A stretch of DNA of 64,000 nt, from NCBI RefSeq assembly GCF_016446285.1, contig NZ_CP054140.1, forward strand, positions 849,501 through 913,500. The letters are read 5' to 3'. The DNA is from Desulfobulbus oligotrophicus. Its GTDB lineage: Bacteria > Desulfobacterota > Desulfobulbia > Desulfobulbales > Desulfobulbaceae. The position numbers were made by a program, and so were the translations under genes. Shown here piece by piece: positions 35,097-39,465 of this stretch (the stretch's first letter is position 1; every line of letters starts with the position of its first letter). Below the pieces are notes generated by a model, which did not search any database, had not been told where the DNA came from, and saw only the letters and a program-made list of their open reading frames with translations.

Positions 35097-36314
35097 CTAC
35101 AGGACGGATTCAACTTTTTCACCGGCCATCATGGCCTGCATTGCCCTGCCGACCGTGCGTCCAAGCTCCACACACTGCCCAAGTTGACCATGTTCAGGTA
35201 CATATGGCACTTTGAGTCCCTTGTGACAGAGGACGATGTCCAGCTCTTTGATAATAGCATTCATCATGCCAACCGCCTCACCAGACCATCCATAAGAGCC
35301 AAATGTGGCGGCAACCTTTTTGGCAGGCCGCAGACCGCGCATATACATGAGAAAGTCGACCATTCTCGGCAGCATACCGTTGTTGAGAGTGGATGAACCA
35401 AGAACCAGAGCGCTGGCCTCGAGCACATCTGTCATGACATCGCTGCGGTGGTTGACCTGCAGATCAAACAACTTGTATTCAACACCCTGCTCATGCAGCC
35501 CTTCGGCCACTGCCCTGGCCATCATTTTAGTGGAGTCCCACATGGTATCGTAGATCACCAGGGCCTTGCCGTTCCCCTGGTGAGTACACCAGCGGGAGTA
35601 TGCCTCAATGATTGCAGCAGGGTTGCTTCTCCAGACAACACCATGATCCGGAGCCAGCATCTTTATCGGGAGTTGCATCTCCTGCACCTGGGCCAGCAGC
35701 TTCTGGACAAAAGGTGAGTAGAGGGTGAGGATATTTGCGTAGTATTTGGTCGCCTCACGCATGAGGATATCTTGACTCACCTCATCGTCAAAGCGCTCGC
35801 TGCTTGCAAAGTGGGCACCAAAGGCGTCACTGCTGAACAGAATCTGATCTTCTTTCAGATAGGTGAACATTGAATCCGGCCAGTGTAACATCCGAGTTTC
35901 GAGGAAACTGAGTGTCCGTTGCCCAAGACGTATTTCCTCACCGGAAGTGACCACATGATACGGCCAGTCCGGACGATGGAAGTGTTGTAACAGCGCCTTG
36001 TGCCCCATCTTTGAGCAGATGACTTTTTCCGGGTTGATGGCTTCCATTATTTCCGGGAGCGCTCCGGAGTGGTCCATTTCAACGTGGTTCACCACAAGAT
36101 AATCAATTTTTTTCGGATCAATGATGTTCCGAATCCGGTGAAGCAGCTCGCCTGTATACGGCCCCTTAACCGTATCGATCAGGGTGACCTTGTCATCGAT
36201 AATAAGGAAGGCATTGTACGTGGTGCCGTTGATGGAGTACCCGTGGAAATCCCGGGTGATCCAATCAACTGCACCTACCCAGTAGATATTGTTCGCCAGT
36301 TTAATTTTTCTCAT
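35097..36314 (-). CDS. flavodiiron protein, rubredoxin:oxygen oxidoreductase (ROO/FprA)
   Basis: A 405-residue A-type flavoprotein that reduces oxygen to water (or nitric oxide to nitrous oxide) with electrons from rubredoxin. The N-terminal metallo-beta-lactamase domain holds the diiron site, with NHVEMDHSGALPE as the HxExDH motif. The C-terminal flavodoxin domain starts with VIYDTMWDSTKMMA and has the flavin loop GSSTLNNGMLP. The ATG at 36314 lies behind AGAGGA at a good distance; an upstream TTG is too close to it. Neighbouring DsrE-like, rubredoxin and desulfoferrodoxin genes form an oxygen-defence cluster. Confidence 0.95.
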   Translation of the reverse strand: MRKIKLANNIYWVGAVDWITRDFHGYSINGTTYNAFLIIDDKVTLIDTVKGPYTGELLHRIRNIIDPKKIDYLVVNHVEMDHSGALPEIMEAINPEKVICSKMGHKALLQHFHRPDWPYHVVTSGEEIRLGQRTLSFLETRMLHWPDSMFTYLKEDQILFSSDAFGAHFASSERFDDEVSQDILMREATKYYANILTLYSPFVQKLLAQVQEMQLPIKMLAPDHGVVWRSNPAAIIEAYSRWCTHQGNGKALVIYDTMWDSTKMMARAVAEGLHEQGVEYKLFDLQVNHRSDVMTDVLEASALVLGSSTLNNGMLPRMVDFLMYMRGLRPAKKVAATFGSYGWSGEAVGMMNAIIKELDIVLCHKGLKVPYVPEHGQLGQCVELGRTVGRAMQAMMAGEKVESVL

Positions 36315-36339
36315 GAGCAAATTCCTCTGAACAGGTGAA

Positions 36340-36687
36340 TTAAAAGGTCAGAATGGTGTACCCCTGATCAATGAATGCAGACATCGCCGGATGACCGGAC
36401 ATTTCACCGATTAACGGTATATTTTCTTTTGTTATGGCGTCGGTCACGTTGAGTTTGGCGGAGCAGGCCCGACAGGCCCCGATGAACAGATTCTGCTCCC
36501 GTGCCTTACGGTACAGAGGGTGAAGGAAATGGCTGCTGTCGGCCATAATGGGTACCAGGGTAACGGCTTCTCCTTCGAGGACAATTTTACCTTCCATCCC
36601 CTTGGCAGCCATATCAAGACTGTTCAATAGCACGTGGATAAAACAGAGCGGGTTATCGCGGAATGCGAAAAAGACATGCTTCTTCAT
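36340..36687 (-). CDS. DsrE-family protein linked to ROO
   Basis: A 115-residue DsrE/DsrF-fold protein, starting KKHVFFAFRDNPLCFIHVLLNSLDMAAKG. The cysteines in FIGACRACSAKL are placed like the sulfur- or redox-active cysteine of the family. GGAGATACTTC precedes the ATG. It lies 25 bases before ROO on the same strand, so both are likely from one transcript. It is not closely similar to the two DsrE proteins at 28 kb. A role in sulfur transfer is uncertain; a redox or Fe-S repair function during oxygen exposure is an alternative. Confidence 0.75.
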   Translation of the reverse strand: MKKHVFFAFRDNPLCFIHVLLNSLDMAAKGMEGKIVLEGEAVTLVPIMADSSHFLHPLYRKAREQNLFIGACRACSAKLNVTDAITKENIPLIGEMSGHPAMSAFIDQGYTILTF

Positions 36688-36861: not shown

Positions 36862-37020
36862 TTACGCCTCTTCGAACTCATCTTTACCAACACCGCAAAC
36901 AGGGCAGGTCCAGTCTTCGGGGACATCTTCAAAGGCGGTTCCTGCGGCCACACCGTTGTCGGGGTCGCCTTGAGCCGGATCGTATACATAACCACAAACA
37001 GTACAGACGTATTTTTTCAT
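36862..37020 (-). CDS. rubredoxin
   Basis: A 52-residue one-iron electron carrier. Iron ligands are in [10 protein letters not shown] (Cys6, Cys9) and [11 protein letters not shown] (Cys39, Cys42). It is expected to donate electrons to the neighbouring ROO and to desulfoferrodoxin or rubrerythrin. The ATG at 37020 follows AAAGGATACAAC; an extended frame upstream has no such signal. It follows desulfoferrodoxin with 26 bases between, the classical rbo-rub pair of sulfate reducers. Confidence 0.97.
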
Positions 37021-37046: not shown

Positions 37047-37421
37047 TCAAGCTTTCCACAAGCCATGCAGGTTACAGTATTCTCGTACGGTTATCTGATC
37101 TGCCTGAACACAAAATGTGGCTTCCGGTGCGTCTCCCGGGTTGAGATCCTGGCGGTACACCTTACCATCGGCAATCAGCTCAATAAATTCAATCCAGTGC
37201 TTTTCTTCCATGGGGTGAGGGGTTGATCCCACTACAACTTTATATCCATCAGCGACTTTCGTGACAACCGGTACGTGTTTTTCTTTGGATGCATCAACGG
37301 TGTTTTCAGTCATCAGGGCCATCGGCTGGCCGCAGCAGACCAGTTCACCGGCACCGATGTGAAGAACCTCAGTTATGTTTCCACAGAGGGCGCATTTGTA
37401 GACTTCGTTCTTCTTGGTCAT
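37047..37421 (-). CDS. desulfoferrodoxin (class I superoxide reductase)
   Basis: A 124-residue superoxide reductase. The N-terminal desulforedoxin-like domain binds an Fe(Cys)4 centre through YKCALCGN and ELVCCGQPM. The catalytic Fe(His)4Cys site is in [20 protein letters not shown], and the C-terminal [10 protein letters not shown]. All ligands of both centres are present. It detoxifies superoxide without producing oxygen. AAGGAGAACATGCC precedes the ATG. A PerR-type palindrome lies about 20 bases upstream and a promoter 30 bases beyond that. Confidence 0.97.
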
Positions 37422-37692: not shown

Positions 37693-38343
37693 TTACGCAA
37701 GTGCACCTTCACCCTGTTGGGTGATTTCGTATTTGCAGCGGACAGGACTGGCCACATACCCTTTGTTTTTGAGGGCGGTTATCTGACAACTGACCTGTTT
37801 GGTTTCAAGTCCCGTAGCAGCAGCCAGTTCCTTGCTGCCGCAAGGCTCAGACGTTTTTGCAAGTGCTTCAAGGACAAGCCGTTGCTTTTCGTTGAGCGGG
37901 GTGGTTTTACATGTGGTATCGGCCATATCTTGTTCTCCCTTACGGTTGGTTTGATGTTTCTGAGAGCATTGCGGACAAATTCCGTAGAATTCAATCCTGC
38001 ATCCGGTAACGTGATACCCCTGTAGCTGTGTCGGCTCAATCAAAGGAAGGGTGCGGGGTACAGTGTCAATATTATCAATCCGATGACATTTGACACAGTA
38101 CACATGATCGTGATCGGTTGTATCCCAGTCAAACCGATTGTGCCGGCCGCTGACCTCCAGTTTTTTAATGATACCAACATTGGCCAGGGTTTCGAGGTTC
38201 CGGTATACAGTTGCCAGACTGATCCGGGGCAGTTTTTTTTTGATGCGTTTATACAACTCCTCTGCTGTCGGGTGATCTTTACACCTGGCCAGTTCCTGGA
38301 GAATGGTTTCGCGCTGATGTGTTCTACGTGGAAATTGTCGCAT
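37693..38343 (-). CDS. Fur/PerR-type regulator fused to a second winged-helix domain
   Basis: A 216-residue protein. Residues 1-125 form a complete Fur-family repressor: HQRETILQEL, the recognition helix SLATVYRNLETLANVGI, HDHVYCVKCHRID, and CPQC near residue 125. An additional domain follows (about 140-216), NEKQRLVLEALAKTS then KELAAATGLETKQVSCQITALKNKGYV, a typical winged helix. Inside the frame at 37926 an ATG follows AAGGGAG eight bases away, so a separate 77-residue second-domain protein may also be made. The start at 38343 is preferred because the upstream GTG at 38370 lies in the predicted -10 box. Location suggests control of desulfoferrodoxin. Confidence 0.85.
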   Translation of the reverse strand: MRQFPRRTHQRETILQELARCKDHPTAEELYKRIKKKLPRISLATVYRNLETLANVGIIKKLEVSGRHNRFDWDTTDHDHVYCVKCHRIDNIDTVPRTLPLIEPTQLQGYHVTGCRIEFYGICPQCSQKHQTNRKGEQDMADTTCKTTPLNEKQRLVLEALAKTSEPCGSKELAAATGLETKQVSCQITALKNKGYVASPVRCKYEITQQGEGALA

Positions 38344-38369: not shown

Positions 38370-38398
38370 CATGTAATTGATAATCATTTTCATGTCAA
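38370..38398 (-). promoter_or_regulatory. promoter with PerR-type box before the fused Fur-type gene
   Basis: On the minus strand a perfect TTGACA (38393-38398) is followed after 17 bases by TACATG (38370-38375). The spacer holds AATGATTATCAATT (38375-38388), the best Fur/PerR-like palindrome of the window, suggesting autoregulation. Confidence 0.65.
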
Positions 38399-38641: not shown

Positions 38642-39256
38642 CTATTCGAGGATAAAATCATCACGGCGATTATAGGTGTGGTCGTCTTCACTCTGACCGG
38701 TGAACAGCGGTCGTTCTTTGCCGTAACTGACGGTCCGGATACGGCTTTCGTCAACACCATATTCACGGAGATAGTTTTGAGCGGCCACTGCTCGTCTTTC
38801 GCCAAGGGCAAGGTTGTACTCACTGGTTCCGCGAATGTCGGTGTTCCCTTCAATGAGCACGTGGGCTGACGGATTGTTTCTCAGGTAATCACCGTTGTGT
38901 TCCATGTTGGGAACCTGATCGCTCCTGATGCCTGATTCATCAAAGTTAAAGTAGACAGGTTTAAACTCAGGCGAACTGCGGCCGTGCTCTCGCTTATACG
39001 CATCGCTTTGCTGGTCAGCGTCACCGTACAGGCTGCCACCGCCATCACCATTACCACGTCCTGTGGAATCAAGTCCTTCGGTTCCGGAGCTGAACTCTTC
39101 AGTGATGGTGCCCAGGCGGTTGTCACCGGTGTCTTCCGTCGCGGCTCCGGTCCCCCCTCCGGCGTAAGGAGCAACAGTCTTGGGTCCGCAGGCGCCTAAC
39201 AGCGCCAGGGTGCAAAAAAGAGTTACTGCAAGGAAAAGACGGGAAAGCACATTCAT
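38642..39256 (-). CDS. Pal/OmpA-family outer-membrane lipoprotein
   Basis: A 204-residue lipoprotein. The signal peptide ends in the lipobox LLGAC with Cys23 as the lipidation site. A low-complexity Gly/Thr/Ser-rich linker (about 30-90) leads to an OmpA/Pal domain (95-204) that binds peptidoglycan, with VYFNFDESGIR, VLIEGNTDIRGTSEYNLALGERRA and RIRTVSYGKERP. It ties the outer membrane to the cell wall. The ATG at 39256 follows GAGG; the longer frame upstream is not likely. It is not next to tol genes, so calling it pal is unsafe. Confidence 0.9.
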   Translation of the reverse strand: MNVLSRLFLAVTLFCTLALLGACGPKTVAPYAGGGTGAATEDTGDNRLGTITEEFSSGTEGLDSTGRGNGDGGGSLYGDADQQSDAYKREHGRSSPEFKPVYFNFDESGIRSDQVPNMEHNGDYLRNNPSAHVLIEGNTDIRGTSEYNLALGERRAVAAQNYLREYGVDESRIRTVSYGKERPLFTGQSEDDHTYNRRDDFILE

Positions 39257-39465
39257 GAGTTGACCTCGCGGTAAGGGTGAATAACGTAAAAAATCCATTT
39301 CATCTATACCTAGAACCAACCGGAGACGTCAAGAAAAAGCTCGCCTCTCTTTTTTTCGATTTTGTGCTGGTGCTGACATGCGTTTCTTTTACCTTTTTCT
39401 TGCGGGTCTTTTTGGGGGATGGTAGATGGAAGAACAAACATCATAACCTTTGCTGCGGGGAAGCC

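Follow-up and report, generated by a model that had tools for sequence, protein, structure and literature searches.

A single gene of Desulfobulbus oligotrophicus joins a PerR-like repressor of the Fur family in frame to a winged helix-turn-helix (wHTH) domain and carries, in the linker between the two, a second translation start whose nucleotides are constrained in relatives with the same fusion. The fusion recurs across the order, and in other genomes the two domains are encoded by neighboring genes. We consider it fairly probable from these comparisons that an ancestral two-gene unit merged and the internal start was kept, such that one gene would give both the fusion and a free wHTH protein.

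Organization of the fused gene

The fused open reading frame occupies positions 37,693 to 38,343 on the minus strand of the window (the whole 64,000-nucleotide stretch of DNA analyzed here, from the single-contig, 3.10-Mb D. oligotrophicus genome). As judged from the reading frame and its homologues, it runs from an ATG at 38,343 to 38,341 to a stop codon at 37,695 to 37,693 and encodes 216 amino acids comprising a PerR-like Fur-family repressor, a linker, and a wHTH domain; a GTG upstream at 38,370 is an alternative start giving a 225-amino-acid form. The first-pass annotation had placed a Fur domain and a winged helix in one frame but gave no strand; the single frame is confirmed and now assigned to the minus strand. 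Among the matches listed, the closest named record, with 86% over the wHTH, comes from a metagenome assembly of Desulfobulbus.

The linker, delimited by AlphaFold prediction and alignment, spans residues 127 to 149 (37,897 to 37,965, minus strand) and holds the internal translation start. The internal ATG (37,924 to 37,926, minus strand) is Met140 of the fusion and Met1 of a 77-amino-acid short form (37,693 to 37,926, minus strand), a wHTH with an SPxRCKY motif that was characterized by Pfam, alignment, structural modeling, and Foldseek and that is likely also made alone. The Shine-Dalgarno (SD) sequence before this ATG, AAGGGAGAA at 37,941 to 37,933 on the minus strand, is read in frame as Lys-Gly-Glu, and its duplex with the anti-SD has an energy of -8.4 kcal/mol, compared with +0.4 kcal/mol at the main ATG, which is without an SD. 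The strong ribosome-binding site previously proposed for the ATG at 37,926 was thus borne out.

A PerR-like first domain

Residues 1 to 126 (37,966 to 38,343, minus strand) form the PerR/Fur domain, as defined by Pfam FUR, alignment to PDB 2fe3, and column counts over 79 fused proteins. Pfam FUR (PF01475) matched with 97.8 bits against a gathering score of 23.1 (profile positions 5 to 120 of 121), covering residues 15 to 128 of the 225-amino-acid form with an E value of 6.5e-28. Two PerR models headed the NCBIfam matches with 113 and 84 bits and the best Fur model scored 76, all below their own cutoffs; the 113 bits, to the PerR equivalog NF052545, fell short of the 180 needed. By sequence, the nearest solved structure was Bacillus subtilis PerR (PDB 2fe3; E value of 5e-24). 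The earlier description of this domain as Fur type was therefore correct at the family level, but the NCBIfam scores fit a PerR-like protein better than a plain Fur.

Cysteines C83, C86, C123, and C126 were present in 79 of 79 fused proteins; we take these two CxxC pairs to be the structural zinc site that is a feature of the PerR subgroup. At the positions of H37, D85, H91, and H93, the regulatory ligands of B. subtilis PerR, we found H24, H78, and H80 in 79 of 79 fused proteins and D72 in 77 of 79. The fusion thus has the Cys pairs and the ligand positions in common with B. subtilis PerR and differs from it in having a C-terminal wHTH with an internal start and at the position of D104, an Asp that is a feature of the PerR subgroup. 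This position is N91 in the window protein and is Asn in 70 and Asp in 9 of the 79 fused proteins. For this reason we term the domain PerR-like, and it need not sense peroxide in the way that B. subtilis PerR does; on the alignment, N91 in place of D104 may alter metal choice or peroxide sensitivity.

A winged helix behind a linker predicted to be disordered

The second domain had been described as a typical winged helix of about 77 residues. The whole protein passed the Pfam cutoff of 22 for both HTH_IclR (27.7 bits) and HTH_5 (22.9 bits); the 77-amino-acid form taken alone reached no Pfam or NCBIfam cutoff, scoring 21.5 bits for HTH_5, 20.0 for HTH_IclR, and 17.3 for MarR_2 (cutoff of 27). 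A structural model of the wHTH alone, predicted with 85 of 141 sequences in the alignment, had a mean pLDDT of 81.7, and its top Foldseek matches in the PDB were MarR-family regulators with E values near 0.001, just one of them below 0.001. The domain thus resembles small MarR- and ArsR-type wHTH proteins in fold and in its weak ArsR/IclR sequence matches, but it differs from them in staying below the family cutoffs as a 77-residue form and in carrying SPxRCKY. The SPxRC motif is almost invariant, with Cys64 found in 140 and Cys29 in 127 of 141 sequences. At least two cysteines lie within the 16 residues before the wHTH core in 106 of 140 sequences, and the window protein has one. A metal or redox role of the wHTH cysteines is possible from this pattern.

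AlphaFold prediction of the fusion from 79 sequences gave two folded domains with a pTM of 0.50 and no fixed placement of one relative to the other; residues 134 to 146 had pLDDT values below 50, and the linker is predicted to be disordered. A search by 8-mer counts upstream of perR found no target site for the wHTH. The possibility that another copy of the wHTH might take over was considered and rejected, as genome G000 gave one match only.

The wHTH profile also matched PscE (PDB 7ueb), one of the small subunits in the reaction-center supercomplex of Chlorobaculum tepidum, over 53 residues with an E value of 1e-9, and the two share the SPxRC motif. PscE is termed a helix-turn-helix subunit in the portion of the structure paper available to us (PMC9529944). 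A DNA-binding family may have given rise to this subunit of the photosynthetic apparatus.

Downstream genes and a candidate operator

The next gene downstream on the minus strand encodes desulfoferrodoxin, or superoxide reductase (37,047 to 37,421; TIGR00320, 210 bits), and it is followed on the same strand by genes for a rubredoxin (36,862 to 37,020; Pfam and NCBIfam), a DsrE-like protein (36,340 to 36,687; just under the Pfam cutoff), and a flavodiiron, rubredoxin:oxygen oxidoreductase-like protein (35,097 to 36,320; Pfam and NCBIfam). By these matches, the four downstream genes are an oxygen and superoxide defense cluster. Within the examined stretches, desulfoferrodoxin occurred in 66 of 80 fused loci, 9 of 39 loci with separate genes, and 1 of 23 loci with a wHTH and no PerR, indicating that the downstream genes vary between loci. 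Upstream on the same strand lies an OmpA-domain gene (38,642 to 39,319), which was found within the examined stretches in 36 of 80 fused loci.

A candidate PerR/Fur box, TGAAAATGATTATCA (38,378 to 38,392, minus strand), matches TGATAATNATTATCA at 13 of 14 positions and lies just downstream of a -35-like hexamer, TTGACA (38,393 to 38,398). Over the 119 fused and separate loci, the best match to the TGATAATNATTATCA palindrome upstream of perR averaged 11.1 of 14, compared with 8.8 in base-shuffled sequence, and the box follows TTGAC in 23 of 30 loci listed. Two other candidates fit less well than TGATAATNATTATCA and were set aside: the B. subtilis PerR box TTATAATNATTATAA (mean best match of 10.1 versus 9.0 shuffled) and the 19-base Fur consensus (12.2 versus 10.7 shuffled). 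PerR sites predicted for Desulfotalea psychrophila, as given in the accessible part of the source, are GTTAATGATAATCATTAct before roo1-roo2 and GaTAATttTTATtATTAAC before perR (PMC545781). The box TGAAAATGATTATCA, together with these similar predicted sites, suggests self-repression, and autoregulation of the fusion through positions 38,378 to 38,392 is probable on this comparison.

Fused and separate states across the phylum

The wHTH profile matched 166 of 257 genomes of the order. We classified loci of 144 order genomes chosen for matching, with 24 of the 166 matching genomes outside the classified set, and these, as in all genome counts here, represent related species and not independent events: 80 were fused, 39 had adjacent genes on the same strand, 23 had a wHTH without PerR in the stretch, and 2 were without a wHTH. 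The class of 23 wHTH-only loci partly reflects contig ends, as G192 begins inside an apparent PerR end and the wHTH frame of G171 begins 41 bases into its stretch. A search with the whole protein gave a match in 51 of 55 genomes, including that of the window, and 25 of 30 loci taken from it were uninterrupted fusions. Of 76 named records, many of which duplicate contigs already counted, 56 carry the fusion, 15 have PerR as a separate gene within the stretch, and 5 have no PerR there. Fused genes occur in Desulfobulbus elongatus DSM 2908, D. alkaliphilus DSM 24258, and Desulfogranum marinum, D. japonicum, and D. mediterraneum, and perR and the wHTH gene are separate in Desulfopila sp. IMCC35008.

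Outside the order, the phylum survey gave wHTH matches in 96 of 395 genomes, 85 of them beyond the order. Among the 26 best-scoring genomes of this group (29 loci, including three repeats; the other 59 of the 85 score lower), 22 had separate same-strand neighbors, 2 were fused, and 2 had no PerR in the stretch. Rubrerythrin is the next gene in 24 of these 26 genomes as judged by eye, with Pfam confirming one, plus one after a fused gene. A merger of two neighboring genes, as the first-pass annotation had suggested, agrees with the adjacent separate genes in 39 of 144 order genomes and in 22 of 26 genomes outside it. In 24 of 39 separate loci, the wHTH start with the best SD overlaps the perR frame. 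An SD precedes the separate wHTH start in 39 of 39 loci when TTG is allowed and in 14 of 15 loci of the named set with ATG and GTG only; in one separate locus (G021), the SD before the ATG is weak (-3.0 kcal/mol; L241).

Several other arrangements were observed. One single-contig genome of the same genus (G018; locus L030) has perR and a wHTH match nowhere. In some separate loci of family f12, a nitroreductase-family gene lies 3' of the wHTH gene (by Pfam at L160 of G154 and by eye at L136 of G132). Of the loci with a wHTH and no PerR, one (L097) has, by eye, the wHTH just before a rubrerythrin-like gene and two (L104 and L149) before a peroxiredoxin-like gene, and 10 of 23 have a rubredoxin-like match on the same strand, with L145 among those without one. 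The wHTH may be linked to oxygen defense independently of PerR.

By parsimony, the fused and separate states interchange 12 times on a quick, unrooted tree of 119 fused or separate pairs, of which at least 4 changes are forced by well-supported branches; since 48 of 115 inner branches are weakly supported, the figure of 12 is what parsimony gives, and 4 is the more cautious estimate. Because the tree is unrooted, gains and losses are not separable from it alone. The separate neighbors in 22 of 26 genomes outside the order suggest that separate genes are likely the older state. A fusion also arose in family f27.

Conservation of the internal start

An ATG or GTG before the wHTH with an SD of -5 kcal/mol or stronger was found in 67 of 80 fused genes (mean of -8.64 kcal/mol), 42 of them in the family of the window and 25 outside it. 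The start codon is ATG, or GTG in two genomes (G005 and G125), and G167 has a GTG directly before the ATG. Other in-frame ATG and GTG codons of the fused genes averaged -2.39 kcal/mol (n = 421), and 2.6% of them reached -7 kcal/mol versus 92.5% of the 67 internal starts, a contrast partly built in by choosing the 67 on SD strength. The glycine codon test and the alignment counts are free of this selection. The glycine codon within the SD was GGA in 63 of 64 genes, whereas five further glycines conserved in these genes used GGA in 17 of 59, 13 of 67, 15 of 63, 12 of 66, and 16 of 66 cases (18 to 29%). Three of the 67 genes had no glycine in the stretch; G002 and G086, which have an ATG with a weak SD, also have no glycine there, and no counterexample of this type was therefore lost from the codon test. 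When codons were reshuffled synonymously 200 times, the mean SD weakened from -8.64 to -6.70 kcal/mol, with all 200 trials weaker and the strongest at -7.26 kcal/mol.

In 54 of 67 genes, 8 nucleotides separate the SD core from the start, and the linker before the start ranges from 7 to 23 residues. In 79 fused proteins, Lys135, Gly136, Met140 (66 of 79), Cys142, and Cys145 stand out among the linker columns. Compared with control windows, the region around the start shows less pairing (0.60 versus 0.44), part of which lower GC may explain. A peptide-level reason could keep Lys-Gly and Met but not their codons, and the codon bias thus points to a nucleotide signal; together, the GGA and SD constraints indicate nucleotide-level selection on the internal start. 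The earlier proposal of one gene with two products is upheld as regards the SD and start kept in 67 of 80 fused genes and their codon constraint, and the short wHTH is probably made from this start.

Lineages without the internal start

Thirteen of the 80 fused genes are without a good internal start: nine have no ATG or GTG, those of G088 and G089 have only a GTG with an SD of -1.0 kcal/mol, and those of G002 and G086 have an ATG without an SD. Eleven of the 13 belong to genus g9 (four genomes) and genus g33 (seven genomes), where the Met is lost too. The start-less genes are those of G030, G088, G089, and G091 (loci L023, L158, L156, and L164), G092 to G097, and G099. Genus g9 includes the cable bacterium Candidatus Electronema aureum (G088) and Desulfobulbus sp. 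F5 (G089), and our guess is that g33 represents cable bacteria as well. KGD or KGE is retained in six of seven g33 proteins, showing that part of the motif can persist without the start. Mapped on the tree, presence or absence of the start in fused genes requires three changes. Of the f27 fusions, found outside the order, that of G340 keeps the SD and ATG, and that of G421 has lost both. The 13 genes without a good start suggest that some lineages can do without the short form, and the start-less lineages (g9, g33, and G421 of f27) are natural single-product controls.

Discussion

The comparisons described above favor a model in which perR, followed by a small wHTH gene, formed an ancestral unit at the head of oxygen defense genes. 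Loss of the perR stop in frame would have allowed ribosomes starting at the perR ATG to make PerR-linker-wHTH, and the ribosome-binding site and start of the wHTH gene, kept within the linker, would also yield a free 77-amino-acid wHTH. Free wHTH and PerR may act at the same promoters, with the wHTH as a DNA-binding partner or modulator of PerR; fusion would fix the contact between them, and free wHTH would supply extra subunits. By binding the box at 38,378 to 38,392, the fusion may keep its own cluster repressed until peroxide releases it. Repeated fusion of two genes is a classic hint of joint function, and the repeated fusion of perR with the wHTH gene suggests that their products work together. 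Retention of the start in fused genes likewise suggests that free wHTH is still needed.

An unlikely alternative is that the gene is a plain fusion making only the full-length repressor, with the internal SD and ATG as relics of the second gene. The in-frame joining of the domains across many species fits this view, as do the 13 of 80 fused genes that have no good start and still have open frames. Such a relic, however, would have had to survive in a variable linker, in two families, with GGA in 63 of 64 genes, the 8-nucleotide distance in 54 of 67, and Met140 in 66 of 79 proteins, and 11 of the 13 start-poor genes, those of g9 and g33, lost the Met along with the start. A pause of the elongating ribosome at the internal SD that aids PerR folding, with the Met conserved at the peptide level only, would account for the SD codon constraint and for the retention of KGD or KGE by six of the seven start-less g33 genomes. 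We nonetheless regard a pause as quite improbable, as it leaves unexplained the start codon at a fixed 8-nucleotide distance, the replacement of ATG by GTG in G005 and G125, and the SD before the wHTH start in separate loci (39 of 39 with TTG; 14 of 15 with ATG or GTG).

The fused frame could in principle be a sequencing or assembly error that hides a stop between two genes, and sister genomes do have separate genes, and many compared genomes are draft or metagenome assemblies. The first-pass annotation had asked for a check of positions 37,926 to 37,980 in this respect; no stop occurs there, and 80 of 144 genomes share the uninterrupted fused frame, including cultured strains and single-contig genomes (relatives G001, G014, and G027 among the latter), which leaves an error a negligible chance and led us to reject it.

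To our knowledge, PerR is usually described as acting alone. We tentatively raise the possibility, about which we have more doubts than about the merger itself, that the wHTH is an undescribed PerR co-regulator in this phylum that is needed both tethered and free, with relatives of Electronema using the tethered form only, and that the free form competes with or completes the repressor.

Internal in-frame starts, PerR, and domain fusion are each known already. Spa33 of Shigella is part of a secretion apparatus and not a regulator, and its short form reportedly comes from an internal in-frame start. A title on Spa33 states that multiple proteins are made from a single gene (PMC6925163). For a regulator, the available portion of a study of AerR from Rhodobacter capsulatus describes long and short forms produced via an internal start that act oppositely on photosystem genes, with a silent GGA change in the internal ribosome-binding site used to stop the short form (PMC6199135). 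AerR is a precedent for forms of one regulator acting differently; it differs from the fusion described here in being an unrelated protein with a CTG start and two promoters, and the same portion holds nothing on an origin as a two-gene fusion (PMC6199135). In delta-proteobacterial perR-rbr operons, perR leads rubrerythrin and roo genes, as here, but the accessible part of that work mentions neither a wHTH partner nor a fusion (Rodionov et al. 2004; PMC545781). Among the titles and abstracts of open-access papers listed by our literature searches, none reports a recurrent fusion of PerR to a wHTH that conserves an internal start or names a wHTH as a companion of PerR, and no listed paper concerns this gene. 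Within that scope, both the recurrent fusion with its conserved start and the wHTH as a PerR companion appear to be new.

The wHTH adjoins perR in several families, fuses with it repeatedly, and mostly keeps its start, which points to a partner of PerR. The natural set of separate genes, fusions with the start, and fusions without it makes the role of the free form testable. Recurrent fusion need not destroy the start of the downstream gene, and annotation with one protein per frame would then miss the short form. If the wHTH is indeed a co-regulator needed in both forms, free wHTH would set how sharply the oxygen defense genes are released, and evolution would alternate between a pair of genes, neighboring or overlapping, and a single gene giving two products.
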